Shown piece by piece: positions 6,191-26,809 of a stretch of DNA of 64,000 bases. The stretch lies in assembly GCF_000332115.1 (NCBI RefSeq), contig NC_020156.1:2419501-2483500 (forward strand), in the 5' to 3' direction. Made by a program: the position numbers and the translations under genes. The stretch comes from Nonlabens dokdonensis DSW-6 (GTDB lineage Bacteria; Bacteroidota; Bacteroidia; Flavobacteriales; Flavobacteriaceae). The notes below the pieces were generated by a model. That model saw only the letters and a program-made list of their open reading frames with translations. It made no database searches and was not told where the DNA came from. The first letter of the stretch is position 1. Each line of letters opens with the position of its first letter.

Positions 6191-6979
6191 CCTAGCTTTA
6201 ATTTCAAACAAAGTAGGAAACAATTGATTGTTTAAATAATAAAGTCCATCTTCTCGCAATTCCATATCAGGAAAAACGTCGTATGGACTACCGTCATGCT
6301 CTGCAAAAAGTTCTATCGTTAATCCGGCATCTATTAAAGACTGGATCACCTCACTTAGGGAATGATTCCAGCCATATTCTTTAGAGACCATTTTTGAATC
6401 TGGCGCAGCATAGGTACCAGGATACTCGTCATAAATAGCTTCATTTTGCGCATAATGATATTTGAGTGATGGTTTTTCCTCGTTATAATCATACATCCAG
6501 ATAATAGGATGAAATTCTACGATGTAGAATATGCCACCAGGCTTTAAACGCTCAGCAATCATCTTTGCCCAAGGTTTTAAATCTGGCAGCCAGCCAATGG
6601 TGCCATAACTGGTAAAAACAATATCAAATAGGTCCTTTACATGTTGCGAGGTGTCCAAAACATTGCAGCACGCAAAATCTACTGGTAGTTTTAAATCTTC
6701 ACTAAGTTTTTTACCTAACTCAATGGCTTTATCAGATATATCTACCGCTGTAACTTGCGCACCTTTGTTTGCCCAGCTCAAGGAATCTTGACCGAAGTGG
6801 CATTGTAAATGCAGCATCTTCTTGCCTGTTACATCTCCTAGAGCATTGATCTCGTAGGAGTTTAATGAGTTTTTCGCTTTCGCGAAAGCGTGCTTATCAT
6901 AGAAATCGCTTTCATAATGAATGCTAGTCTTGGTGTTCCAAGTTTCTCGGTTGAGCTCAAATGCTTTTTGTAAATCCAT
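6185..6979 (-). CDS. Class I SAM-dependent methyltransferase
   Basis: A 264-residue soluble enzyme with a Rossmann SAM-binding core: KKMLHLQCHFGQDSLSWA (motif I, about residues 53-70), AQVTAVDISDKAIE (acidic ribose-binding residue) and LFDIVFTSYGTIGWLPDL. It resembles small-molecule methyltransferases of the UbiE/Methyltransf_25 kind, and the substrate is unknown. The palindrome at 6875-6890 is in frame (HAFAKAKNS) near residues 31-35, outside the catalytic core. Divergent from the flavin-reductase-like gene. Confidence 0.85.
   Translation of the reverse strand: MDLQKAFELNRETWNTKTSIHYESDFYDKHAFAKAKNSLNSYEINALGDVTGKKMLHLQCHFGQDSLSWANKGAQVTAVDISDKAIELGKKLSEDLKLPVDFACCNVLDTSQHVKDLFDIVFTSYGTIGWLPDLKPWAKMIAERLKPGGIFYIVEFHPIIWMYDYNEEKPSLKYHYAQNEAIYDEYPGTYAAPDSKMVSKEYGWNHSLSEVIQSLIDAGLTIELFAEHDGSPYDVFPDMELREDGLYYLNNQLFPTLFEIKARK
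6875..6890. repeat. 16-bp palindrome copy 3 (exact)
   Basis: In frame in the methyltransferase gene, encoding AFAKA in the N-terminal region before the SAM-binding core. Confidence 0.95.
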
Positions 6980-7036
6980 ACAGCAATTTAATAAAGTTTA
7001 AACATTTAGAAAGCTGTTCAAGGTCTTGTTTTGTTT

Positions 7037-7044
7037 TATATTTG
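7037..7044 (+). promoter_or_regulatory. -7 box TATATTTG
   Basis: Matches TAnnTTTG and ends 18 nt before the ATG at 7063. Confidence 0.45.
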
Positions 7045-7062
7045 GATCAATAAGTTAAACAA

Positions 7063-7722
7063 ATGAAACACATCAACCTAAAACAACTGCAAGAATACGA
7101 TCGATTTTATCGTGGTAATCTAGTAAATAGTATCACTGGATTTAAAAGTGCCAATCTTCTTGCGACACGTTCCAAAGATGGTATCGATAATGTTGCTGTT
7201 TTTAGTAGTGTGACGCATTTAGGAAGCAATCCAGCTTTGTTTAGTTTTGTACAAAGACCTTTGGGACACGGCGTAGGTCATACGTATTACAACCTAAAAG
7301 AAACAGGTAAGATCACATTGAATCATTTGCCTCAATCATTAATTGACCGTGCGCACCAATCGAGTGCTAAATATGATGAATCTATATCTGAGTTTGAGGA
7401 ATTAGGAATTGAAAAACTGGAACGAGAAGGTTTTAGCGCTCCATTTATAAAAGATGCACCAGTTCAACTCGCAGCCGAATATGTGAATGAATATTATCTA
7501 GAAGAGAACCGATGTATTCTTGTGATTTGTAAAATTACAGATATCTTTTTACATGAAAATCACCTCGCAGAAGATGGTTGGGTGGACTTAGGAAAAGCTG
7601 GTACGGTAACAATAAATGGTCTGGACGGCTATGCTACTGCAAAAGTGGAAAAACGATTAAGCTATGCACAAGTTGATAAAGATTTGGAGGAGATTTCTAT
7701 GAAGACTGGTAAGTCAAAATGA
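7063..7722 (+). CDS. Flavin reductase-like (FMN-binding split-barrel) protein
   Basis: A 219-residue protein of the flavin-reductase-like family. The N-terminal half carries the split-barrel pattern: SITGFKSANLLATRSKDGIDNVAVFSS, then NPALFSFVQRP and HTYYNLKETGKITLNHLP. Family members bind FMN and some reduce free flavin with NAD(P)H. The precise reaction is not shown. Its position beside photolyase and cryptochrome genes, which are flavoproteins, is suggestive but may be coincidence. Confidence 0.85.
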   Translation: MKHINLKQLQEYDRFYRGNLVNSITGFKSANLLATRSKDGIDNVAVFSSVTHLGSNPALFSFVQRPLGHGVGHTYYNLKETGKITLNHLPQSLIDRAHQSSAKYDESISEFEELGIEKLEREGFSAPFIKDAPVQLAAEYVNEYYLEENRCILVICKITDIFLHENHLAEDGWVDLGKAGTVTINGLDGYATAKVEKRLSYAQVDKDLEEISMKTGKSK

Positions 7723-7772
7723 GTTCGAACTTCAACCTTAATTTGAACTCGAATTAGCAACTGGGACGATTG

Positions 7773-7845
7773 AACCTGTGAGGTTTCGCCCTAGAAACAG
7801 TTGGAAATTAAAAGATGAATTTAGAAAGGCAACCTCACAGGTTTT
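7773..7845 (+). repeat. About 73-bp inverted-repeat element R2, copy 1
   Basis: Ends are AACCTGTGAGGTTTCGCC and GGCAACCTCACAGGTTT, with an AT-rich interior. Same size and ends as the element at 9726-9798. Confidence 0.75.
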
Positions 7846-7885
7846 AATCCAGTAGAGAAAATTAATAAGAATCGAGAAACAATAA

Positions 7886-7912
7886 AGCGAAGCCAATCTG
7901 CAACGGCTTGAC
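7886..7912 (+). repeat. 27-bp hairpin module R1, copy b
   Basis: AGCGAAGCC ... GGCTTGAC with a short loop. It lies 40 bp after an R2 element, the same order as at 9726-9867. Confidence 0.7.
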
Positions 7913-7924
7913 TTAACAAAAAGA

Positions 7925-7942
7925 TTTCCGCCTGCGCGGAAA
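7925..7942 (+). promoter_or_regulatory. Leader hairpin upstream of the DUF2256 gene
   Basis: TTTCCGC-CTGC-GCGGAAA ends 5 nt before the ATG at 7948. The same hairpin, preceded by the same CAAAAAGA, precedes the FeS-type photolyase gene at 10161-10178. Confidence 0.5.
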
Positions 7943-7947
7943 ATGTT

Positions 7948-8091
7948 ATGAAGCAAAAAGCACGCAATCAACATAATTTACCAACTAAAGTTTGTCCAGT
8001 ATGTGAACGAGAGTTTACGTGGCGTAAGAAATGGGAAAAGAATTGGGAAACGGTAAAGTATTGCAGTAAAAAATGTAGTGGGAATAAATGA
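7948..8091 (+). CDS. DUF2256 small zinc-ribbon-like protein
   Basis: A 47-residue protein beginning [19 protein letters not shown]. It has two cysteine pairs, KVCPVC (C16, C19) and a C-terminal YCSKKC, around the conserved [12 protein letters not shown]. This is the DUF2256 pattern, a probable zinc-binding module usually found next to or fused with cryptochrome/photolyase genes. Here it is followed by a DASH-type cryptochrome and then an FeS-type photolyase, matching that context. An upstream in-frame ATG at 7943 leads to an immediate stop, so 7948 is the start. Confidence 0.88.
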
Positions 8092-8163
8092 ACTTATACG
8101 CGAACTCGAAAAAGATGTCAGTTCGAGCGCAGTCGAGAACGTTTTGAGTTCAGTTTCCTGTAG

Positions 8164-8220
8164 ATTTAAGTTTAAGTTTAAGTTTAAGTTTAAGTTTAGA
8201 TTTAATTTAAGTTTTAAGAC
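8164..8220 (+). repeat. Tandem TTTAAG hexamer repeat
   Basis: About five and a half perfect copies of TTTAAG, followed by degenerate units. It lies between the DUF2256 gene and the cryptochrome gene. On the reverse strand it reads as an artefactual (LN)n peptide. Confidence 0.9.
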
Positions 8221-8236
8221 ACCTGAATTATAAGAA

Positions 8237-8263
8237 AGCGAAGTCGTCCTGCGATGGCTTGAC
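8237..8263 (+). repeat. 27-bp hairpin module R1, copy c
   Basis: AGCGAAGTCGTCC ... GATGGCTTGAC, a variant of the R1 module, 76 bp before the cryptochrome start. Confidence 0.6.
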
Positions 8264-8338
8264 AACTAATAAAGAAAGATTTAAGTTCAACAAAATAAGT
8301 TGAGTTTACATTTAAGTTTAGATTTTAATTTATAGAGT

Positions 8339-9673
8339 ATGAGCAACCTAGTTTGGTTTAGAAACGATTTAAGAGTGACAGATAATCACAGTTTAAAAGC
8401 AGCTTGTGATAAAGAAGGCGATGTAATTGCTGTCTATTGTTTTGATCCTGCTTTTTATAAGGAAAGTGATTTTGGCTTTGATCTAGATTTCAAATTACCT
8501 TTTACAAAAACAGGTAAATATAGAGCACAATTTATACTTGAAGCTCTGGAAAATTTGAAGGTAGACTTAGAAGAACATGGTATTCCGTTACTTATTTATC
8601 ATAATGCTCCAGCTGTTGTTTTCCCTGATTTAATTAAAGAACATCAAATAAAAAAAATCTTTTTACAAAAAGAATGGACATGTGATGAATTGCAACAAGA
8701 AGAAAAACTAGGAGAGGCTTTAGAACAAGCTGGACTTAAAGATCAGGTAAAAGGACATCGCGTGTACGATCAGTTTTTGTTTCATCCAGATGATGTTCCT
8801 TTTGAAAGTTTTAATCAGATTCCAAGAGTTTTTACAGAATTCCGTAAGAAGTGTGAGAAGCAGTCTGAGATTAGAGATTTAGTTAATATTGATGATTATA
8901 AGCAAGAATTACCAAAGGTAGAACAGACAGACCTTCCTTCTTTGAAAGATTTAGGACTGGAAGAATTTGAAAAAGATCACCGCAGCGCTTTTCCTTGGAA
9001 AGGTGGCGCGACTGCTGCCTGGGAACGACTGGATCATTACTTCTGGGAAACTAAAAAGCTGCAATACTATAAAAAAACCAGAAACGGATTAATCGGTACA
9101 GATTACAGTAGTAAGTTCAGTGCTTGGCTGGCTATAGGAAGTATTTCGGCACGAGAAATTTATTGGGAAGTTAAGCACTTTGAAAAAGAGGTTAAGAAAA
9201 ATCAGGATACCTACTGGCTGATTTTTGAATTGATCTGGAGAGATTTCTTTAAGTATGTTTCACTAAAGCATGAAAGTGATATTTTCCAATTAGGCGGAAT
9301 TCTTAAGAAAGATTACGAATGGAAATCTAGTGAGCGAGAGTTGGACAAATGGATCAATGGAGAAACGCACGAGAGATTTGTAAATGCTAATATGAAAGAG
9401 CTAGCTGCCACTGGTTTTATGAGCAATCGCGGTCGACAAAATGTAGCTAGTTATTGGTCCATGCATAAAGAGCAAGACTGGAGAATAGGTGCGGCCTATT
9501 TTGAGCACATTCTAATTGATTATGACGTGCATTCTAATTATGGAAACTGGATGTATAATAGTGGTGTAGGAAACGATCCTAGAAATAGAACCTTTAATAT
9601 TAAATCTCAAGCAGATCGCTATGATAGCGATGGTAAATATCAGAATTTGTGGTTGCAGGAAGAATTGTTTTAA
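8339..9673 (+). CDS. Cryptochrome/photolyase, DASH type
   Basis: A 444-residue flavoprotein of the cryptochrome-DASH group, acting on cyclobutane dimers in single-stranded DNA and/or in blue-light sensing. The N-terminal photolyase alpha/beta domain starts MSNLVWFRNDLRVTDNHSL. The C-terminal FAD-binding helical domain includes TDYSSKFSAWLAIGSIS, FELIWRDFFKYVS, GFMSNRGRQNVASY and DYDVHSNYGNWMY. The WRDFFKYVS and SNRGRQNVAS signatures fit DASH proteins. It is the middle gene of the DUF2256, DASH and FeS-photolyase neighbourhood. Confidence 0.9.
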   Translation: MSNLVWFRNDLRVTDNHSLKAACDKEGDVIAVYCFDPAFYKESDFGFDLDFKLPFTKTGKYRAQFILEALENLKVDLEEHGIPLLIYHNAPAVVFPDLIKEHQIKKIFLQKEWTCDELQQEEKLGEALEQAGLKDQVKGHRVYDQFLFHPDDVPFESFNQIPRVFTEFRKKCEKQSEIRDLVNIDDYKQELPKVEQTDLPSLKDLGLEEFEKDHRSAFPWKGGATAAWERLDHYFWETKKLQYYKKTRNGLIGTDYSSKFSAWLAIGSISAREIYWEVKHFEKEVKKNQDTYWLIFELIWRDFFKYVSLKHESDIFQLGGILKKDYEWKSSERELDKWINGETHERFVNANMKELAATGFMSNRGRQNVASYWSMHKEQDWRIGAAYFEHILIDYDVHSNYGNWMYNSGVGNDPRNRTFNIKSQADRYDSDGKYQNLWLQEELF

Positions 9674-9717
9674 AAGAACTTGAACTTGAACTTGAATTTG
9701 AAATTGAAATTGAAAAG
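9672..9717 (+). repeat. GAACTT hexamer-like run
   Basis: Three GAACTT/AACTTG units followed by GAATTTG and GAAATTG variants, beginning at the cryptochrome stop codon. Confidence 0.8.
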
Positions 9718-9725
9718 GATGGATC

Positions 9726-9798
9726 AACCTGTGAGATTTCGCCTTAGGAAAATTTTAGAAATTAAAACGAGAAGTATGCAAGGCAACCTCACAGGTTT
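9726..9798 (+). repeat. About 73-bp inverted-repeat element R2, copy 2
   Basis: Ends AACCTGTGAGATTTCGCC and GGCAACCTCACAGGTTT, with the interior word TTTTAGAAATTAAAA. Confidence 0.75.
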
Positions 9799-9840
9799 GA
9801 AATTTTGTTGAGAAGCTTATAAATAATTGAGATAGAATAA

Positions 9841-9867
9841 AGCGAAGCCGTTCTGCAACGGCTTGAC
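9841..9867 (+). repeat. 27-bp hairpin module R1, copy d
   Basis: AGCGAAGCCGTT-CTGC-AACGGCTTGAC, the cleanest copy with an uninterrupted AGCCGTT/AACGGCT stem. Confidence 0.75.
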
Positions 9868-9882
9868 TAATTAATTTTGATT

Positions 9883-9956
9883 AACCTCTGAGATTTCGCC
9901 GAGGGAAATGAATTGTAAATTAAAAGAATAAATAGGAACGGCAACCTCATAGTATT
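9883..9956 (+). repeat. About 73-bp inverted-repeat element R2, copy 3
   Basis: Left end AACCTCTGAGATTTCGCC, right end GGCAACCTCATAGTA. A slightly decayed copy. Confidence 0.65.
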
Positions 9957-10160
9957 GAGAAATGATAATAAATAAATAAAGCCGAATTCATTCGGCGTGA
10001 TAAAAGAACGCCGCAAGGCGACAAAATAATTTTATAGGGGCAGAATTCATTCTGCCATTTATGATAAAATAGCCGTCCTACGACGTCCTTACAATAACAA
10101 AGGAACAATAGTGCTTGTAAAATTGAGATAAAAAGAGATATAATGATTAAAGCAAAAAGA

Positions 10161-10178
10161 TTTCCGTCTGTGCGGAAA
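10161..10178 (+). promoter_or_regulatory. Leader hairpin upstream of the FeS-type photolyase gene
   Basis: TTTCCG-TCTGTG-CGGAAA, ending 11 nt before the ATG at 10190. Near twin of the hairpin upstream of the DUF2256 gene. Confidence 0.5.
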
Positions 10179-10189
10179 TTGCAGACAAT

Positions 10190-11731
10190 ATGAAAACATT
10201 ACGATTAATACTAGGAGATCAACTCAATCACAAACATTCTTGGTTCAACGGCAATCAGGATGATGTAATTTATTTCATGGCAGAGATGCGTCAAGAAACA
10301 GATTATGTCACGCATCACATTCAAAAAGTAGTTGCGTTTTTTATGGCGATGCGCGGTTTTAATGAATGGATGCAAGATCGTGGCTGGAATACGGTGTATT
10401 ATAATCTCGACGATAAACGCAATACACAAGATCTGGTTAAGAATTTGAAACAACTAATTAAGGAGCATGATATTGAAAAGTTTGAATACCTCGCGCCAGA
10501 TGAATGGAGACTAGATCAACAGCTTAAAGATTTTTGTAAATCTCTAGATATAGAGTGGCAAGGTTATAATACCGAGCATTTTTTGACCAAAAGAAAAGAT
10601 GTAGAGAAGTTTTTTGAGGGAAAGAAACGCCTTACTATGGAGTATTTCTACCGCGATATGCGCAAGAAATACGATATCATGATTGAGGGCGATAAAGAGC
10701 CAGGAGGTGGAAAATGGAATTATGATCAAAGTAATCGTAAAAAATGGGATGAAAAAACCGAGATCCCACACGAGCGTGGTTTTAGAAAAGATGTCAAAGA
10801 AATTACCGACTTATTAGAAAAAGAAGGTGTGAAAACCATAGGCCGGATTGATCCAGATAATTTCAATTGGCCTACGACCAGACAAGATGGACTGGATGTT
10901 TTGAATTATTTCTGTGAACATTTGTTGGTTCATTTTGGAGATTTTCAAGACGCCATGCATACCGATCAAGACTATCTTTTTCATTCCAGATTGAGCTTTG
11001 CGATGAATTGCAAACTGCTTGCTCCGCTAGAGGTGATTCAGACGGTTTTATCTCGCTTTCGCGAAAGCGGGAAACCTAAAATAGACATTTCTCAAGTAGA
11101 AGGTTTTGTCAGACAAATTCTGGGCTGGCGTGAGTTTATGCGCGGTATTTACTGGAAGGAAATGCCAGATTATCAAACAAAAAATAAGTTAGAAAACAAA
11201 AATAAGCTGCCAGAATTTTACTGGACAGGAGAGACGAAGATGAATTGTCTCAAACATGCTATTAATAACTCTTTGGACAACGCTTATGCGCATCATATCC
11301 AACGATTGATGATCACTGGAAATTTTGCATTACTTAACATGACAGAGCCTAGTTATGTAGACGAGTGGTATCTGGGAATTTATATAGATGCTATAGAATG
11401 GGTAGAAATTACCAATACTAGAGGTATGTCACAGTGGGCAGATGGCGGCATAGTAGCTACAAAACCATACGTAAGTAGCGGTAGTTATATCAATAAAATG
11501 AGTAATTATTGTAAAGGCTGTGCATATAAGGTCACCAAGAAAAAAGCTGAAGAAGATGCCTGTCCTTTTAACTCGTTGTATTGGAATTTTCTTGACGAGA
11601 AAAATGAACATTTTGCCTCTAACCAGCGTATGAACATGATGATGGCTTTGCTTAAGAAAATGGATCCAGAATTGTTGAAAAAGCATAAAAATAGAGCGCA
11701 AGATGTGATTGATAATCCTGCTAAATACTAG
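10190..11731 (+). CDS. FeS-type bacterial cryptochrome/photolyase (PhrB/CryB-like)
   Basis: A 513-residue protein of the prokaryotic [4Fe-4S] photolyase group, whose characterised members repair (6-4) photoproducts. The start MKTLRLILGDQLNHKHSWF is typical. The four cluster-ligand cysteines are visible at about C353 (MNCLKHA), C441 and C444 (YCKGC) and C458 (DACPF). The helical FAD domain includes VEGFVRQILGWREFMRGIYW and ITGNFALL. The palindrome at 11054-11069 is in frame as RFRES. Substrate specificity is inferred from family membership. Confidence 0.93.
   Translation: MKTLRLILGDQLNHKHSWFNGNQDDVIYFMAEMRQETDYVTHHIQKVVAFFMAMRGFNEWMQDRGWNTVYYNLDDKRNTQDLVKNLKQLIKEHDIEKFEYLAPDEWRLDQQLKDFCKSLDIEWQGYNTEHFLTKRKDVEKFFEGKKRLTMEYFYRDMRKKYDIMIEGDKEPGGGKWNYDQSNRKKWDEKTEIPHERGFRKDVKEITDLLEKEGVKTIGRIDPDNFNWPTTRQDGLDVLNYFCEHLLVHFGDFQDAMHTDQDYLFHSRLSFAMNCKLLAPLEVIQTVLSRFRESGKPKIDISQVEGFVRQILGWREFMRGIYWKEMPDYQTKNKLENKNKLPEFYWTGETKMNCLKHAINNSLDNAYAHHIQRLMITGNFALLNMTEPSYVDEWYLGIYIDAIEWVEITNTRGMSQWADGGIVATKPYVSSGSYINKMSNYCKGCAYKVTKKKAEEDACPFNSLYWNFLDEKNEHFASNQRMNMMMALLKKMDPELLKKHKNRAQDVIDNPAKY
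11054..11069. repeat. 16-bp palindrome copy 4 (exact)
   Basis: Within the FeS-type photolyase gene in the frame that encodes RFRES (context LSRFRESGKP). Confidence 0.95.
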
Positions 11732-11844
11732 AAAAAATAGTTTAATGTTTTGTAATATTTTGTTTCGGAGATGCTTACAGTTATTTAAGAATTACTTGTG
11801 ATATACTATTCGTTTTGTAATTAACTTTAGGAAAAACACTCATT

Positions 11845-13200
11845 ATGAAATCTTTACGTATTTTCTTACTTGTTTGTGCATCGTTAAGTTTGGTAAGATT
11901 AGATGCTCAAGTAGGTATTCAAAATGATAATCCGCAGGCTACGTTAGATATTTCAGCAGGCGCAACCGTAGATTCTAATGATGGTTTATTAATACCGCGT
12001 ATAGAAAATTTTCCTTTGATTGATCCAGGTGCCGCACAAAATGGAATGTTAGTTTTCTTAGAAACAGCTTCAACAGGTAACACGGCAGGATTTTATTTTT
12101 GGAACAATAGCAGTACCTCTTGGGAGAAATTAGGTGAAGGCGGATTCTGGTCTCAAGGTAGCATAAACGATCGACCATATATTTTTTATCAAGATGCGCA
12201 AACTAATAATTCTATACCGCTACGAATATTTGAAGATGGTTATGTAGGTTTAGGTGCCGTAGATGAACCTCGAGAACGACTAGAATTGAGATTTGAAGGT
12301 GATAATGATGTCCAGTTGACTAGTAGTTTTCCTGCTAATCCTCCTAATTTAATTTATTACAATCAAGGTGGAACTTTTGAAAGCCCAGAATTTTTACGAA
12401 GAGATGAACCTATAGGTTACACTGTAGGGAAAACATGGGATGGAGATGATCAATCTGGAGACATCATAGGAATCCAATTTGATGCTGCAAATGTGCACAC
12501 TGCAACTAGTTTGCCCACTAAAATGAGATTTGCTGTAACAAATGTTGATGAGGTAATTAATGAAGTTCAAATGACATTAGAGAGCTCGGGAGAGTTGCAA
12601 CTTACGCAATTAAACAGCACTAATAATGTTGCAAATGATGGCGTGAGACCTGTTCCCGTATTTGTAAATGTTAATGGCGGATTTACTTTAAATGGTGACT
12701 CACAAATTCTAGTGGAACCAAGTGTCAAGTATACAAATTCAGACATTACAACCAATTTGAATGTAGATGCACTTGCTCCGGCAAATACTGCTGTAGGTTT
12801 CAATCTTCCAGTAATTGGAAATTTACAATGGAATGACGACACTAACTTATATCAAGTAGGAAGCTCAGGACAATTTATTAGAGTTAATGAAGCTGGTAGA
12901 TATAATATTGTGGGTAATATTTACTTTAGAGGAAATGCACCAGGAGCTAGTCTCAAATGTTACGTTGTCATAGAACCAGCAAATGGAGATCCTGATTATG
13001 TCGCTAGCTCTATTTATGCTAATAGTTACATCGGAGGTTCTTTCAATCATAATTTGTCATCAATTTCATTTACAGAAGATATAGAAATTGACGCTGGGGA
13101 TATTTTATCAATACGTGTTAAAGGTAATGGTAATCAAAATGCTACTATTACTATGGAAACCGCTGGTAGCAGTATGCTACAATTGACTAAAATTAGATAG
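11845..13200 (+). CDS. Secreted adhesin-like protein of unknown function
   Basis: A 451-residue exported protein with a signal peptide ending near LVRLDAQVGIQ. The segment following it (NPQATLDISAGATVDSNDG, then LLIPRIENFP and FYFWNNSSTSWEKLG) is a pattern common in surface and tail-fibre-like proteins of Flavobacteriaceae. The C-terminal 130 residues (GRYNIVGNIYFRG ... ISFTEDIEIDAGDILSIRV) look like an all-beta jelly roll of C1q/TNF type. That fold is my inference. No secretion-tail (T9SS) domain is evident. No enzymatic motif seen. Confidence 0.7.
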   Translation: MKSLRIFLLVCASLSLVRLDAQVGIQNDNPQATLDISAGATVDSNDGLLIPRIENFPLIDPGAAQNGMLVFLETASTGNTAGFYFWNNSSTSWEKLGEGGFWSQGSINDRPYIFYQDAQTNNSIPLRIFEDGYVGLGAVDEPRERLELRFEGDNDVQLTSSFPANPPNLIYYNQGGTFESPEFLRRDEPIGYTVGKTWDGDDQSGDIIGIQFDAANVHTATSLPTKMRFAVTNVDEVINEVQMTLESSGELQLTQLNSTNNVANDGVRPVPVFVNVNGGFTLNGDSQILVEPSVKYTNSDITTNLNVDALAPANTAVGFNLPVIGNLQWNDDTNLYQVGSSGQFIRVNEAGRYNIVGNIYFRGNAPGASLKCYVVIEPANGDPDYVASSIYANSYIGGSFNHNLSSISFTEDIEIDAGDILSIRVKGNGNQNATITMETAGSSMLQLTKIR

Positions 13201-21496: not shown

Positions 21497-22504
21497 TTAG
21501 TTTCTTAAATAGAAATCTACAGAGCTTGCTCCAGCAAGAGTATTATTTATCGAGGGAGATATATTTCCACCAGATCCTACATTGTTAAATCCTAATACGC
21601 GTCCACCACCGTTAGCAATTTCTGCAATAATTACTGTGTTTGTGCTCGTATCATAGGTTACATCAATTGGGTTACCCATAAGTGTTGCGGCACCAGCAAC
21701 TCTAGTTTGTATTCCAGCAATAGCTAAGGTTCCACCATCTGCAACTGCTGCAATATTACTTGTAGCGTTATTGATGATATGAAAACCGCCATCTGTATCA
21801 CTGCCAGCACCAGAAGCTGCACCTATATCTGTCATGATAAGTACATCGTCTGTCGCGTCGTATGCGATACCATGTGTTCTCACAATTCCTTCTATAGTAA
21901 TTCTTTTACTAGCTGTTAATGTACCACTAGTTGTATTTGATAGGAAATTATTGAAGATTGCGAGGTCTCCAGTTTGATCTACTACTGCATATAAATCGTT
22001 CCCTATAAATTCTACACCCCAAACGGCAAAGTTTACATCAAATTGATTTCTCAAAGAAAGTCCGCTTGCGGTACGTGTATATACATAGAAAGCGTTTGTT
22101 CCATTATCTGCAACTACAATAGAGTTACCACTAACGGCTAATGCTCTTGGGCTATTAAAATCTACAGAACCATTAACACCAACTACAGCAGATAATCCAC
22201 CTGTTAAAAATGATTCTACGTTTACATAACTGTTCAATCTTAAAGAAGAACGAGAAGCTACGTAAAGTTCATCTGAAGAGGCGTCGTATTGAATACCTTC
22301 ATTTGATGTTGAAGCTGTTGTCAAAGTTGTTACTTCGGCATTGTTTGCAAAATTGTATACAGTTATGTCTCCATTAGAAACACTTGTTGCATAAAGCTCT
22401 GCTCGGGAATTATCTGGCAAATTGTTATTGTCGTCATCACTATCACAAGATGTGAAAATCAGCGCACAAAACGCCATGCTAATACTTAAAATTTTAGTTT
22501 TCAT
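21497..22504 (-). CDS. Beta-propeller-like lipoprotein
   Basis: A 335-residue lipoprotein: lipobox ALIFTSCDSDDDNN, followed by repeating blades of the form ELYATSVSNGDITVYNF, GIQYDASSDELYVASR, ALAVSGNSIVVADNGTN, GVEFIGNDLYAVVDQTG, GIAYDATDDVLIMTDIG and DVTYDTSTNTVIIAEIANGG. This spacing is that of an NHL- or lactonase-type propeller. No catalytic residues can be named. Monocistronic, closed by a strong terminator. Probably exposed on the outer membrane or in the periplasm. Confidence 0.75.
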   Translation of the reverse strand: MKTKILSISMAFCALIFTSCDSDDDNNNLPDNSRAELYATSVSNGDITVYNFANNAEVTTLTTASTSNEGIQYDASSDELYVASRSSLRLNSYVNVESFLTGGLSAVVGVNGSVDFNSPRALAVSGNSIVVADNGTNAFYVYTRTASGLSLRNQFDVNFAVWGVEFIGNDLYAVVDQTGDLAIFNNFLSNTTSGTLTASKRITIEGIVRTHGIAYDATDDVLIMTDIGAASGAGSDTDGGFHIINNATSNIAAVADGGTLAIAGIQTRVAGAATLMGNPIDVTYDTSTNTVIIAEIANGGGRVLGFNNVGSGGNISPSINNTLAGASSVDFYLRN

Positions 22505-22659
22505 AAAAAAGGTTTACGTTAATTTACTCTATTAACGTAGACAGGGTAATGACGGTTTTTTTAAATAATAACTTTCACTTTGGTTTAACATGAAACAACT
22601 CTAATCGTTAAACATTGATTAAAACATAGTATGCGTAAGAGAAAATTTTAAGAAATAGA

Positions 22660-22715
22660 CTACAAAAAGAAATTCCATACCAGACCAAAACGAATGGTAA
22701 AGTCGCGGTAGGGAT
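22660..22715 (-). repeat. Distal 56-bp direct repeat: extra copy of the porin 3' end
   Basis: Matches 24783-24838 over 56 bp with 3 mismatches. On the minus strand both copies encode PYRDFTIRFGLVWNFFL and a stop, and all three differences are synonymous (CGC/CGA, GAC/GAT, TTT/TTC). This copy directly follows the SIR2-TPR stop codon and has no gene of its own. Confidence 0.9.
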
Positions 22716-24745
22716 CAATATTTTTCCATTAACTCAATAAAGTCAGGATCTTCTTTATAGTGTTTCCAGTCTTGATCTTTTAAAACGTGGTCTTTATCAA
22801 TTTGGCCTTTGGATAATGACTTTTTTAAATGTTTTAAAGCTTTGTTTTTTTCTTTTAATAAAGAATATATGCATGATAAATTATATGATGAGCCACCTAA
22901 ATTAACAGTTTTTTCTGCTAAAGCCTTTGCTTTTTTTAAATTAATCTCCATTTCTTCTAAATATTCAAATTTAAAAATATGAAACATTATTAAAAGAGTA
23001 GAAGTATAATTATCATAAGCTAATTCGTACTCGGGATTTAATTCAATAGCCTTTTCATATTGATCAAAACTTTTTCTGAACAGGGTTAAATCTTTATTAA
23101 GCTCTGCTAAATCTGAAATTGCATTCCCATAGTTGAAATAAGTTGAGTGTTGTTTTGGGTTTAACTCAATAGCTTTTTCATATTGAATTAAACATTTTTC
23201 AAACAAAGTCTCATTTTGTTTAAGATTTGCTAATTCTGAAAGCGCAATTCCATAATTGTTATAAACTGAATAATTTTTAGGATTTAATTCAATAGCTTTT
23301 TCATATTGAATAAAACTTTTTTCGAACAAAGATTCTTCTTGCTTAAATTTAGCGAGGTCCGAAAGTGCAATGCCGTAGTTTATAAACGATGAAATATTGC
23401 TACCGTTTAAATTAAGAGCTTTTTCAAATTGAATAAAACTTTCTTTAAATTTTAATTCATCTTGATTAAGTTTTGCAATACCTAGAAGCAGCGTTCCATA
23501 GTTGTAATGAGCTAATTCACTTTTATGGTTTAATTCTATTGCTTTTTTATATTTTTCATATACTAAATCAATCATAGAATAATCTTTACTTCTTTGAATT
23601 GATTCGTGTAATTTATAACCCCAATTTACATAGAAATCTGAAAGTTCTGGTTTTGCATTTTTAAATTTGGATAATTTGATTTTTTCTAAAAAAGCGCCTT
23701 CGTTTTCTTCAAATTTTTCTTTTACATAGGCTTCTATTATTTCTTGTTTAAATTTTTTAACAGAATCTTTTTCTTGAATATCATTTATAGCCTCATCGAT
23801 CCAGGAGTTGCTTATTTCCATACGTTCGGACAAACCTTTGTATAAATCTTTGTGATCTTCAATCACATCAATTTCTTCTGGCATTTTAATTTCTCGCATC
23901 ATAGATTTTAAAAAGGAAAAAGGTTTATCTATGATTTCAGGAGTCGGTAGTCCTAATTTAGAATGCAAGTCTAGAAAAAAGGTGTCTGCATCATAACCTG
24001 AAATGGAATGGGCGTTTTTTGTACTAATGTTCAGTAGCTCATTTTGAACGATATCCGCTGCATTATTGTTTAGATAGTTTACCCAAAATAATTCATTATC
24101 AAAACTTGCAAATTCTTTAATACTATCAAAAACTTCGTCTTCACCACTATAACCTACTATTATAAATGTCCTATCATGACAAATTTTATTAAGGAGTAAA
24201 GGAATTCTGTCTTTTACTTTCTCTAGTTCTCCTTTTGCGTTCAATAACCATTCTCCATAATGCTGTCCATGCAGATAGGTGATGGATTCTTTTTGAAAAG
24301 TTGTAGTGGTAAATTCGTTTAAATTAGAAATGTCATAAGTAGGCATAGTGTAATTAAATAATCCACAAGCTCTCAACAATAAGTCATCGAAGTTTACTGT
24401 AAGAACATAATCTATATATCCTAATTTGACTAATTGAGCTAAATAAATATGCGCCGTATTCACTTTTGCTTCTTCTATGTAGTCTTGGAATAATTTACGT
24501 CTCTCCTTTGCATTGAGAGCGGTCATTAATTCATAATAATTATTTTTTTTATCAGGAGATAAATTTATTATAGCTGGCTTATCTTTAAAATCTTTTAGTA
24601 TTCTTTCTATTATACCATTTGCCAAAGGAATTCCACCTGAAACTGATGCTCCAGCCCCTAAAAAGACAATGGGTTTTGGTTCATTATTGTCTTTTGCTTG
24701 TTTGATTAGATATGCTAAATCTTGAATTCCCTTTTTCATAACCAT
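22715..24745 (-). CDS. SIR2-like NADase domain fused to TPR repeats (candidate defence protein)
   Basis: A 676-residue protein. Residues about 20-260 form a SIR2-like domain: PIVFLGAGASVSGGIPLANG (NAD-binding GAGxS), LTVNFDDLLL, YLHGQHYG with the likely catalytic His, and IIVGYSGED. A helical linker follows, then about four near-identical 46-residue TPR units (about 405-590; SYxxYNNYGIALSELA ... FEKAIELNP type) and a DPDFIELMEKY ending. Defence-associated SIR2 proteins degrade NAD+ on phage sensing. That role is inferred here from architecture and from insertion of the gene between direct repeats of a porin 3' end. It stands alone with no partner gene. Confidence 0.8.
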   Translation of the reverse strand: MVMKKGIQDLAYLIKQAKDNNEPKPIVFLGAGASVSGGIPLANGIIERILKDFKDKPAIINLSPDKKNNYYELMTALNAKERRKLFQDYIEEAKVNTAHIYLAQLVKLGYIDYVLTVNFDDLLLRACGLFNYTMPTYDISNLNEFTTTTFQKESITYLHGQHYGEWLLNAKGELEKVKDRIPLLLNKICHDRTFIIVGYSGEDEVFDSIKEFASFDNELFWVNYLNNNAADIVQNELLNISTKNAHSISGYDADTFFLDLHSKLGLPTPEIIDKPFSFLKSMMREIKMPEEIDVIEDHKDLYKGLSERMEISNSWIDEAINDIQEKDSVKKFKQEIIEAYVKEKFEENEGAFLEKIKLSKFKNAKPELSDFYVNWGYKLHESIQRSKDYSMIDLVYEKYKKAIELNHKSELAHYNYGTLLLGIAKLNQDELKFKESFIQFEKALNLNGSNISSFINYGIALSDLAKFKQEESLFEKSFIQYEKAIELNPKNYSVYNNYGIALSELANLKQNETLFEKCLIQYEKAIELNPKQHSTYFNYGNAISDLAELNKDLTLFRKSFDQYEKAIELNPEYELAYDNYTSTLLIMFHIFKFEYLEEMEINLKKAKALAEKTVNLGGSSYNLSCIYSLLKEKNKALKHLKKSLSKGQIDKDHVLKDQDWKHYKEDPDFIELMEKY

Positions 24746-24782
24746 AAAGTTAGTCTTTTAGTTGAAAATGAGAACACTAATC

Positions 24783-24838
24783 CTACAAAAAGAAATTCCA
24801 TACCAGACCAAAACGAATGGTGAAATCTCGGTAGGGAT
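24783..24838 (-). repeat. Proximal 56-bp direct repeat (functional porin 3' end)
   Basis: Partner of 22660-22715. The first 39 bp are identical and the remaining 17 differ at three third-codon positions. The two copies are 2123 bp apart. Confidence 0.9.
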
Positions 24839-26744
24839 TGCGCGGTGCGCTGAAGTAATCTGTATTGCTTGAAAAAATACGGTTAGCGTGTTCTAACTTA
24901 AAGAAGATTCTTGTTTGTCTGATTTTGGCATTTACAAACAGATCAATTAAAGGAAAGCCACCTAACTCATCTGTGTTTTGAGAATAGAACTCACCGAGCA
25001 CTGGATCATAGCCGTCCATAAAATATTCTGTAAAGTACTTTGCAGTAATCCCGGTTTGTAAAAGAAGGGCTTTTTTAAATAGTCGGTTTTTATAATACAC
25101 CGTAGTTCTTGCCGTAAAATCAGGAACGTTAAGAATATCTTCTGATTGAGTCACGTTTTGATACATGACCGTATTGTCCCAACCGAAATACTTTAGAAAC
25201 TTAATGTCTTTATTGAGCTTTACTTTAAGGTAAGTAATGTCATCACTGGTTTGAACTGGAGTAGAGTTGTAACCGGTTATTTCATTATTGGTATCTAATA
25301 CTAGACTTTGAGCAAAATAGACATGATCTTGAATGGTGGTAAAGGTCACTTCAGCATTTAAAAAACGTTCGGAATCTAGCTTAAAACTTAGCTCTTGTTT
25401 TTCAATATTATTAAAGTTGTTTTGCCAGTTGTAATTAATGTAATCGCTTTGATGTAAGAGGTAATTAAAGTCAGGAGCCCGAGAACTTATAGCTAGTCCA
25501 GCGGTTACACTCATATCTTTAAAATCATAAGAGGCTTGCCCATTTAGAAACTGACCATCAAGATCTCCTGCGACATTAACGCCACCATTTGCAGTAACAT
25601 CAAATTTACCGATGCGTTTTTCAAATTGTGCTTTAAATTGATATAATTCTCCTATCAATCGGTTAGTGATTACGCCACCAGCTTGATTGATCACTCGGTC
25701 ATAACCATAATTATATTTATGTCTTGCGATTCCAGCTTTGTAAAAACCTAGAATATGGTGATCATAAGAAACACCAGCCTCTATCATTCCTTCTTCTAGA
25801 TTAGTTTTATCCCTTAATCCAGAAGATATGAATGCTTCACCTAGAAAAGCTTCGTCTGCAGTACTCTGGTTAAATTCATAAAATTTATCTTCATAGTAGG
25901 CCTTGTTATATACACGACCGCTGTAATAGGTTGTGCTGTCTTTGTCACCTATGATTTCATAATCATGATCTATATAAAAGCGTCTTCCATCAAGGATACT
26001 TTCTGCATCGGTAAGATTAGGTTCTATTCTTCCACGATTGTCAAAATTTTCATCATCATCTATAAATCCCTGAAGAGAAGTAGCTTCTATACCACCATTT
26101 TCTTGATTTAAATGATCCTGAAAAACCGTATGGAGTCTTAGTCTGTAACGATTGTTTTTTGAAGTATAGTTAGAAGTAAATTTAAAATTACCTGAACTAG
26201 TAAGTGTATTTACATAATCTCCTGCACTACGTACACCTTTGTAGCTTATGGAAAAATTGAATTGGGGAGAAAGATTTGTGGTAAAAAGCGCTTCTAGTTG
26301 CTGGCCTTGATTTACTGCTGTCTTAAAATACAAATCACTCAATGGTGTCGGGACATAGTAATCCATGACATCATTTATTTCATAATAGTTTTGATGCCTC
26401 GCTCTTGCTCCTAATCTAGGAGAAAGCAATTCTAGATCAAAGGATTTACCGAGCTGATTATAAGGTTGTCCTACGTTATGAAATGGCATTAATTCAAAGT
26501 CATCTCTACGCAGGTAGTTGAATTTAAAGTCTTTTGCTATGGTGAGCGTAGTGTCCACATGTGTTGTGTCTCGTTTTTGAGAAATGATAAGATAATCTGT
26601 AATGGGAGGTTTCTCTCCTTCTACGTTTACTTCTTTATTAGTTTGCAGTCGCTGGTCAGGATCGGTAGTCAGTTCATTACGCAATCTTTCTTGCGAAAAA
26701 AGGAATAATGGCAAACAAAATATTAATATAAAAAGTCGATTCAT
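24783..26744 (-). CDS. Putative outer-membrane porin (Porin_10 type)
   Basis: About 653 residues. The start at 26744 (MNRLFILIFCLPLFLFSQ, a signal peptide) is preferred to the upstream one at 26780. The body matches the Bacteroidota 'putative porin' family: DYLIISQKRDTTHVDTTL, FNYLRRDDFELMPFHNVGQ, then a long beta barrel ending FGLVWNFFL with a terminal hydrophobic residue. The substrate is unknown. Its last 18 codons are duplicated 2.1 kb downstream on the far side of the SIR2-TPR gene, so the present 3' end may have been replaced by an incoming element. Confidence 0.82.
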   Translation of the reverse strand: MNRLFILIFCLPLFLFSQERLRNELTTDPDQRLQTNKEVNVEGEKPPITDYLIISQKRDTTHVDTTLTIAKDFKFNYLRRDDFELMPFHNVGQPYNQLGKSFDLELLSPRLGARARHQNYYEINDVMDYYVPTPLSDLYFKTAVNQGQQLEALFTTNLSPQFNFSISYKGVRSAGDYVNTLTSSGNFKFTSNYTSKNNRYRLRLHTVFQDHLNQENGGIEATSLQGFIDDDENFDNRGRIEPNLTDAESILDGRRFYIDHDYEIIGDKDSTTYYSGRVYNKAYYEDKFYEFNQSTADEAFLGEAFISSGLRDKTNLEEGMIEAGVSYDHHILGFYKAGIARHKYNYGYDRVINQAGGVITNRLIGELYQFKAQFEKRIGKFDVTANGGVNVAGDLDGQFLNGQASYDFKDMSVTAGLAISSRAPDFNYLLHQSDYINYNWQNNFNNIEKQELSFKLDSERFLNAEVTFTTIQDHVYFAQSLVLDTNNEITGYNSTPVQTSDDITYLKVKLNKDIKFLKYFGWDNTVMYQNVTQSEDILNVPDFTARTTVYYKNRLFKKALLLQTGITAKYFTEYFMDGYDPVLGEFYSQNTDELGGFPLIDLFVNAKIRQTRIFFKLEHANRIFSSNTDYFSAPRNPYRDFTIRFGLVWNFFL

Positions 26745-26809
26745 AAACAAGGCTGCAAAACAGAATTCAAAAGTAACCATTTAAACGATTTTAAAGCACA
26801 GCTATTATG

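Follow-up and report, generated by a model that had tools for sequence, protein, structure and literature searches.

Integrative elements that settle at gene 3' ends leave a direct repeat of that end, with the host gene intact. In homology-facilitated illegitimate recombination, known from laboratory selections, foreign DNA is added during natural transformation by way of one homologous anchor and one non-homologous joint. The minimal mobile elements of Neisseria consist of differing cargo between the same conserved genes, with no mobility genes, and a displaced gene end is not known to be part of their definition. The fungal mitochondrial gene hybrids formed by mobile open reading frames (ORFs), as set out in PMC3630166, comprise atp6 of Allomyces and atp6, atp9, cox2 and nad3 of Glomus. 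Here we analyze a window of 64,000 nt (G000:C1:2419501-2483500, to which positions at the porin locus refer) from Nonlabens dokdonensis DSW-6, whose genome is a single contig of 3,914,632 bp. In this window a gene for a SIR2-TPR protein lies between an intact porin gene and a second copy of the 3' end of that same gene; we call the proximal copy, inside the intact gene, T1 and the distal copy, beyond the cargo, T2. We hold with about even confidence that a donor allele, together with the SIR2 gene, overwrote the porin 3' end, using homology on one side only and illegitimate joining at the other end.

The SIR2-TPR gene as an insertion behind the porin gene

An earlier note on this DNA, made from the letters alone, had described a 56-bp repeat of the porin end across the SIR2-TPR gene, with the SIR2 stop codon running into the distal copy, and this is what we find. 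The porin 3' end at 24783-24838 and its counterpart at 22660-22715 are identical in 53/56 bases, including the final 39 without interruption, and T2 opens with the final base of the SIR2 stop codon, TGA. The three mismatches, at tail positions 11, 14 and 17 (CGA/CGC, GAT/GAC and TTC/TTT), are all synonymous. Since three random single-base changes in the tail would all be synonymous with a probability of ~0.011, the note's appeal to past protein selection on both copies is reasonable, with three sites only to carry it. Two occurrences of a 24-base tail segment are seen in the window, against none in 100 shuffles, and no third good copy was found in the whole 3.91-Mb genome, where the next best hit is a 22-base match with E 0.03.

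From repeat to repeat the inserted unit measures 2123 bp and is made up of the SIR2 gene, its 37-bp leader and one additional porin tail. SIR2-TPR is the only ORF of at least 90 aa between the repeats, and the absence of an integrase from the element, also claimed earlier, extends to its surroundings: the nearest of the five PF00589 genes in the genome is ~80 kb away. On neither strand does either copy of the porin tail fold in the attC manner any better than shuffles do (z -0.7 to -1.5), and the insert thus has neither the attC-type folding site nor the nearby integron integrase of an integron cassette. The 39 identical bases of the repeat might suit the core of an attachment site, but a core common to the like loci described below was not seen by eye.

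The SIR2-TPR gene is an insertion, and its empty site consists of the porin end and the native flank. An orthologue of the porin is present in 21/22 other genomes of the genus, each of the 21 having one match at E <= 1e-50, and its surroundings were compared over 14.8-16.5 kb in 20 of these relatives and on a 6.6-kb contig in one. In 20/21 the usual genes follow the porin, whether or not the beta-propeller gene is among them, and no SIR2 gene stands between; the exception, G017, has other genes downstream, and G016 has a gap of 606 bp. These are the empty sites that the earlier note had foreseen. The SIR2-TPR protein itself was found in 0/22 other genus genomes at E <= 1e-10 (three of the 22 being <90% complete), which is far from the arrangement, with the gene and both repeats in all relatives, that would speak for vertical descent. 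In the wider family it is present in 6/397 sampled genomes at E <= 1e-30, own genome counted, and a wider search found 763 related proteins. Beyond T2 the flank can be aligned to the sequence downstream of the porin stop of G004, which by porin identity is the nearest relative, with a score of 114 against a maximum of 81 in 200 shuffles, so the idea of an insertion at the porin 3' end holds on both counts, absence in the genus and native sequence beyond T2. No second porin tail was seen in the stretches examined around the porin of the 21 relatives. The expectation that other strains might carry different cargo at this spot was not borne out among them: the site has one occupant within the genus, the other genes of G017 and the gap of G016 notwithstanding. 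The features of the locus are collected in Table 1.

Table 1. Features of the porin-SIR2-TPR locus, by position in the 64,000-nt window
Feature	Position	Strand	Basis
Porin_10 putative porin, 665 aa, intact, host gene	24783..26780	-	PF14121, 506.5 bits; orthologue in 21/22 other genus genomes
T1, porin 3' end in the intact gene, read as the newcomer's tail	24783..24838	-	53/56 identity to 22660-22715; at the 3 differing sites five relatives resemble it less than they do T2
37-bp spacer, porin stop to first ATG of SIR2-TPR	24746..24782	-	no terminator-like site found; Met3 or a position near it is the start in most aligned homologues
SIR2-TPR gene, 676 aa: N-terminal SIR2_2-like domain, C-terminal TPRs	22715..24745	-	PF13289 and TPR models, PADLOC models, alignment with 11 homologues
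T2, porin 3' end outside any porin gene, read as the displaced resident tail	22660..22715	-	identity to T1; native sequence downstream
Native flank of the empty site (155 bp)	22505..22659	-	aligns with the porin-downstream flank of G004
Beta-propeller (NHL-like) gene	21497..22504	-	native downstream neighbour of the porin in many relatives

The porin tail was also considered as a general insertion site. A degenerate pattern of the tail, FG-x-V/I/M-WNFF, has matches in 296/397 family genomes and more than one match in eight, namely our genome and seven others; the candidate was rejected because in those seven the extra copies precede the same leader-like DNA and not cargo. By its look we take this DNA for an rRNA-operon leader, rRNA genes not having been searched. 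The seven genomes (G042, G080, G106, G200, G221, G228 and G365; L099-L102, L106-L109 and L111-L118) have the last ~13-20 porin codons and the leader-like DNA at two or three places, often at contig ends, as though a porin tail had been duplicated along with such a leader. A viral carrier of the tail was likewise dropped, the sole viral-contig match being a chance one, out of frame, inside a phage-like contig.

The SIR2-TPR gene is probably that of a defence NADase, as predicted from its sequence. Its ORF spans the homologues from end to end, C terminus included, in an alignment with 11 of them, and Asn118 and His159, which we take to be the catalytic residues of the SIR2 active site, are invariant in the 12 aligned proteins. 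PF13289 scores above its cut-off, which at the level of sequence indicates a SIR2 fold, and the PADLOC matches are to the SIR2-Ago models and PDC-S65. The solved SIR2 domains nearest by sequence are those of 8in8 and related entries (PDB title 'Sir2 superfamily protein'); we take 8in8 to be the SIR2 of an Argonaute system, although its title does not mention Argonaute. The likeness to the SIR2 subunit of short prokaryotic Argonaute systems is in a SIR2-family domain as the probable effector, whereas here a single protein carries C-terminal TPRs and TPR_END, with no Argonaute-like ORF beside it. GC content is 28.5% in the SIR2-TPR gene vs 35.5% in the porin. No terminator-like site was found between the two, so that SIR2-TPR may be read from the porin promoter by read-through.

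Around homologues of the gene in three other genomes no convincing gene-end repeats were found, the one pair at L065 being 27 nt long, 74% identical and spanning the gene; the scar is therefore not a trait of the SIR2 gene family. As carriers of the cassette, plasmids were set aside (one plasmid record, covering 4% of the query), and so were phages (three distant SIR2 matches, at 24-26% identity). At L063, positions 6514-12291 (G066; apparently the same place as L061, in Psychroserpens algicola), a SIR2-TPR homologue lies within an apparent nicotinamide/NAD salvage cluster of NAMPT-like, PRPP-synthetase-like and Nudix-like genes, as named by eye, and a link between an NADase and the rebuilding of NAD is possible there.

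Lone gene tails behind other genes

Beyond what the earlier note had described, further genes of this genome are followed by such scars. We scanned 1.66 Mb of it (1-1,200,000 and 2,200,001-2,664,000 less 500 bp) for copies of gene ends up to 12 kb downstream, using 1332 mechanical, non-overlapping ORFs of at least 100 aa, those later dropped being counted in. Lone copies of a 3' end beyond cargo were found for 5/1332 ORFs, with six tails in all. Besides the 56-bp tail of the porin with its SIR2-TPR cargo, meaB has two cassettes, with tails of 73 and 132 bp, the cargo being a 164-aa ORF, an AraC-type regulator and a beta-lactamase-family protein, then a 140-aa ORF. An lptB-like gene (the name was assigned from sequence) has a tail of 119 bp behind a two-gene cassette of a 78-aa ORF and a ParE-like toxin. 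The tail of a glyoxalase-like gene, 161 bp long, comes after two kelch-like proteins and a 126-aa ORF, oppositely oriented. At a DUF4136 gene the tail measures 90 bp without gaps and follows a 451-aa protein with an endosialidase-chaperone domain.

No lone gene middles, no lone starts, upstream or downstream, and no lone ends upstream were found for any of the 1332 ORFs, paralogues and repeats set aside. Comparing tails (5/1332) with heads alone (0/1332) gives p 0.06, which is suggestive of a bias toward gene ends; the pooled picture of tails against heads, middles and upstream copies is given as a qualitative one. By eye, lone tails of different genes share no sequence. The earlier note had likened the insertion to that of integrative elements at gene ends, and the finding of the same signature behind four other unrelated genes argues against an attachment site in the porin tail and for a route independent of any one sequence. 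A Pfam search found no endonuclease in SIR2-TPR or in eight other cargo ORFs (3/8 match no family), the second kelch-like ORF and the 126-aa ORF being left out.

Several classes of hits were dropped from the scan. Full-length tandem paralogues, recognized by alignment or from their ORFs, lie at 2366007, 573178-575502, 846837-849328, 934779-935860, 430516, 2406235, 2583934, 524928-527449 and 1076806. Very large repetitive genes were dropped by region or size and not singly (149-225 kb, 2260-2290 kb and ORFs >1500 aa), a C-terminal sorting-domain match (456210/463363) was taken out of the lone-tail count, and 455260/462209 were taken for response-regulator paralogues. Hits to a dispersed palindromic repeat were removed at 661442 and 664846, and at 2360377 as judged from the start sequence. 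The genome has two such dispersed short palindromic repeats (CGCTTTCGCGAAAGCG; ATTCCTGC..GCAGGAAT), for example at 499875-503316 and 661442-664846, and the displaced glyoxalase-like tail starts inside the first of them (CGCTTTCGCGAAAGCG).

As a control, 350 kb of E. coli K-12 with 310 ORFs gave 0 lone gene tails, which is weak since ~1 would be expected at the rate of this genome. Its five raw tail hits were all in ORFs over tRNA genes or beside cas genes, and the repeat beside the cas genes is presumably the CRISPR array. In 771 kb of relatives and other loci (622 ORFs, looser thresholds), part of it picked because it holds the host genes, one lone tail was found, that of meaB in G004; the remaining hits were paralogues, transposase-like copies and a palindrome.

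Differing cargo between the same conserved genes, not seen at the porin, is seen at meaB. Among the other species listed, the interval between meaB and an M1-aminopeptidase-like gene (our name for it) is occupied in G004 by a MORN-repeat protein and a protein with weak likeness to AbiU2; G022 has an acetyltransferase there, G016 an ankyrin protein, and G009 nothing. A second meaB tail of its own is also present in G004. In G012 meaB is followed after ~60 bp by a 113-bp stretch left of an AraC gene, with 82% identity to the one carried as cargo at our own meaB. This adjacency is donor-like and fits a prediction of the overwriting model. In G019 a DUF4136 tail is 98% identical over 97 bp to the displaced tail here, so tail-bearing segments seem to move between species; no DUF4136 ORF was found in the 15 kb around that tail, and the gene may lie just outside.

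The interval between DUF4136 and a transketolase-like gene (G000:C1:2403349-2409731, compared with L189 and L203-L205) also varies by species, as a second variable hotspot, where OsmC-like genes are duplicated or truncated and small lipoprotein-like genes are shared, all named by eye. On two contigs that seem identical (L234/L235; G022 C14 and C13), a homologue of the lptB-linked two-gene ParE-like cassette converges on the gene for a XerD-like recombinase of 301 aa, perhaps as a small mobile element.

Origin of the two tails and explanations of the scar

T1 and T2 probably derive from different lineages, as their differences suggest. Over the six T1/T2 pairs 47 codons differ, 37 of them synonymously, when free mutation in the tail would give a synonymous share of ~22% (p 3e-16) and a model with half of the changes in a functional copy ~61%, a rough figure (p 0.008). 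The divergence between the copies, ~4-13%, is comparable to the distance from G004 for the lptB-like, DUF4136 and glyoxalase-like genes; at the porin it is 3/56, below the divergence from G004 (8/55).

As to which copy is the newcomer, the glyoxalase-like T2 matches G004 at 97.8% over 180 bp, and the match extends into the adjoining native gene, which overlaps the tail at its start. Over the same 87 bases of DUF4136, T2 is identical to G004 at 80 and T1 at 75. At the three differing sites of the porin, five relatives are T2-like 10 times, T1-like 2 times and neither 3 times, and the counts of T1-like to T2-like sites, summed over relatives, are 7:16 for DUF4136, 9:16 for the glyoxalase-like gene, 6:14 for meaB tail 2 and 14:19 for meaB tail 3. 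T2 as the resident copy is thus supported at the porin, the glyoxalase-like gene, DUF4136 and meaB tail 2, while support is weak for meaB tail 3 and absent for the lptB-like gene. The balance of these comparisons favours the distal copy as the displaced resident tail and the end of the intact gene as the newcomer, and this polarity is the weakest link of the argument. The earlier proposal that the porin was restored by an imported copy is a probable one.

We infer from the scars a one-sided homology, an illegitimate joint, a route of entry and a newcomer copy, which together would give the following course. The donor would be another lineage with the SIR2-TPR gene directly behind its porin gene, whose DNA entered, by natural transformation or another route, and then recombined. 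Homology within the porin gene would serve on one side, where the donor 3' end overwrites the resident one, and the SIR2 gene would arrive behind the replaced end in the same orientation. On the other side, with no homology known, the SIR2 stop would be connected to the resident porin 56 bp short of its end. The resident tail and its flank would thereby be pushed 2.1 kb downstream and left as a scar, while the porin stays intact. Such a course accounts for the intact host, the foreign 3' end, the cargo, the displaced tail on its native flank, the unrelated hosts, either orientation of cargo and the lack of a recombinase. Natural transformation is a plausible entry: ComEC is encoded in the genome, and natural competence is reported for some members of the Flavobacteriaceae, although Flavobacterium johnsoniae did not show it under like conditions (PMC7965970).

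A number of observations weigh against this overwriting of the porin end or against the polarity that it assumes. The presence of ComEC is not proof of competence. No donor genome with a porin followed by SIR2-TPR, against which the left crossover and any microhomology at the right joint could be read, was found. All six tails start <=166 bp from the stop, which joints spread uniformly along the genes would give with a probability of ~6e-5; it is possible that this limit, which the model leaves unexplained, is set by strand invasion or end processing. The glyoxalase-like T1 is nearly as close to G004 (96.9% over 160 bp) as T2 is, G004 is undecided at the porin sites (1 T1-like, 1 T2-like), and the lptB-like tails lean the opposite way, with 38 T1-like and 31 T2-like sites in five relatives. 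The tail 3 of meaB is partly mosaic, as from a single crossover of a circle. Finally, the relatives used for polarity are not mutually independent and are mostly 3-15% or more diverged.

A site-specific integration, in which a non-autonomous element has the porin 3' end as its attachment site, is moved by a tyrosine recombinase in trans and restores the gene with its own tail, would suit the direct repeats with their 39-bp identical stretch at a gene 3' end, the intact host and the compact cargo. The five PF00589 genes could supply the enzyme, and a homologue of the lptB-linked cassette adjoins a XerD-like recombinase gene in G022. However, no recombinase lies in or near the element, the porin tail folds no better than shuffles, and, given the like scars behind four genes with unrelated tails, the enzyme would have to recognize five unrelated gene ends. 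The stretches examined around the porins of the relatives hold no second tail, and where more than one match to the tail pattern exists (8/397 family genomes), the extra copies come without cargo in seven. Moreover, at the 5' mismatches, three sites in all, it is T2 and not T1 that looks native, which is the reverse of what attL and attR should give, and we regard integration in trans as unlikely. Between the two agents that the earlier note named, homologous recombination is thus favoured, on one side of the insert, and a helper enzyme recedes. Ordinary homologous recombination could also yield the same structure by a single-crossover (Campbell) insertion of a circle carrying the donor tail and the SIR2 gene, with the tail as homology arm and no special enzyme. 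Short tails are then explained as arm lengths, and the mosaic meaB tail 3, T1-like at its 5' sites and T2-like at its 3' sites (1122222 in G016 and G010), has the expected form. Against this, no such mosaic is seen in the porin and glyoxalase-like tails, and the DUF4136 T2 is native-like over its mid-tail; an unexplained circularization, from the SIR2 stop to the middle of the porin, is required, and an arm of 56 bp is short for efficient recombination. Such a crossover is in our estimate improbable.

The copies may instead have arisen on the spot, by a long target-site duplication or a local tandem duplication at insertion that mutated later, neither copy being foreign. An insert flanked by direct repeats is what one would expect from this, and the functional copy alone could accumulate synonymous changes. 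Nevertheless, divergence of the G004 order at the lptB-like, DUF4136 and glyoxalase-like genes (if lower at the porin), a synonymous share of 37/47 above both expectations given earlier, and repeat lengths ranging from 56 to 161 bp make a local duplication very unlikely. Erosion of an old porin duplicate to its tail, with the SIR2 gene inserted between, could also leave a lone gene end. Yet the T2 flank is the flank of the empty site in relatives, each of the 21 relatives has a single porin match, and no upstream porin sequence remains at T2 although its last 39 bases are unchanged, so that such a vertical remnant is scarcely credible. We therefore return to the overwriting of the porin end by a donor allele as the best explanation.

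Wider meaning and closest known systems

If the six tails have a common cause, they may point to a recurrent, recombinase-free way of gene gain in flavobacteria, in which a conserved gene exchanges its 3' end for that of a donor and takes on the DNA that follows it there, a tail of 50-170 bp being left as the scar, and in which defence and toxin-antitoxin genes thereby land behind expressed core genes. We put this forward tentatively, as a generalization that is more doubtful than the reading of the porin locus itself. The question that it addresses is how single genes, defence genes above all, arrive in core places without a transposase or integrase. Were it true, scars would make single-gene transfers, their donors and the type of joint mappable genome by genome. 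Displaced ends, if they are scars, would be a countable signature of landing genes, their cargo, source lineage and type of second joint, and would tie a bacterial process to the gene-end swaps of fungal mitochondria. We found no description of displaced gene ends as a recurrent scar of bacterial chromosomes in the open-access literature, which is weak evidence of absence.

The nearest bacterial ideas appear to be homology-facilitated illegitimate recombination and the minimal mobile elements. With the former our loci would share the homologous anchor and the non-homologous joint, which in our case are deduced from the scars, the tails being short and no donor having been found. The likeness to the Neisseria elements is at the interval between meaB and the M1-aminopeptidase-like gene, and the porin site, with its one occupant in the genus, differs. 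Integrative elements at gene 3' ends share the repeat and the intact host, but here there is no integrase, and no core common to the five loci was seen.

By analogy, the closest known architecture is that of the fungal mitochondrial mobile-ORF gene hybrids. According to PMC3630166, the ORF in those hybrids is a homing endonuclease, which is the driver, whereas no endonuclease was found in the scanned cargo ORFs here. The cargo, unlike theirs, consists of SIR2-TPR, a ParE-like toxin cassette, an AraC-type regulator, a beta-lactamase-family protein and kelch proteins. In the same account, however, the displaced copy is closer to relatives and the differences are largely synonymous, which would resemble the present case. 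In the hybrids so described a foreign 3' end stands in frame on the resident gene, followed by the ORF, and beyond that lies the displaced C-terminal part of the resident; the porin locus would have been built likewise.

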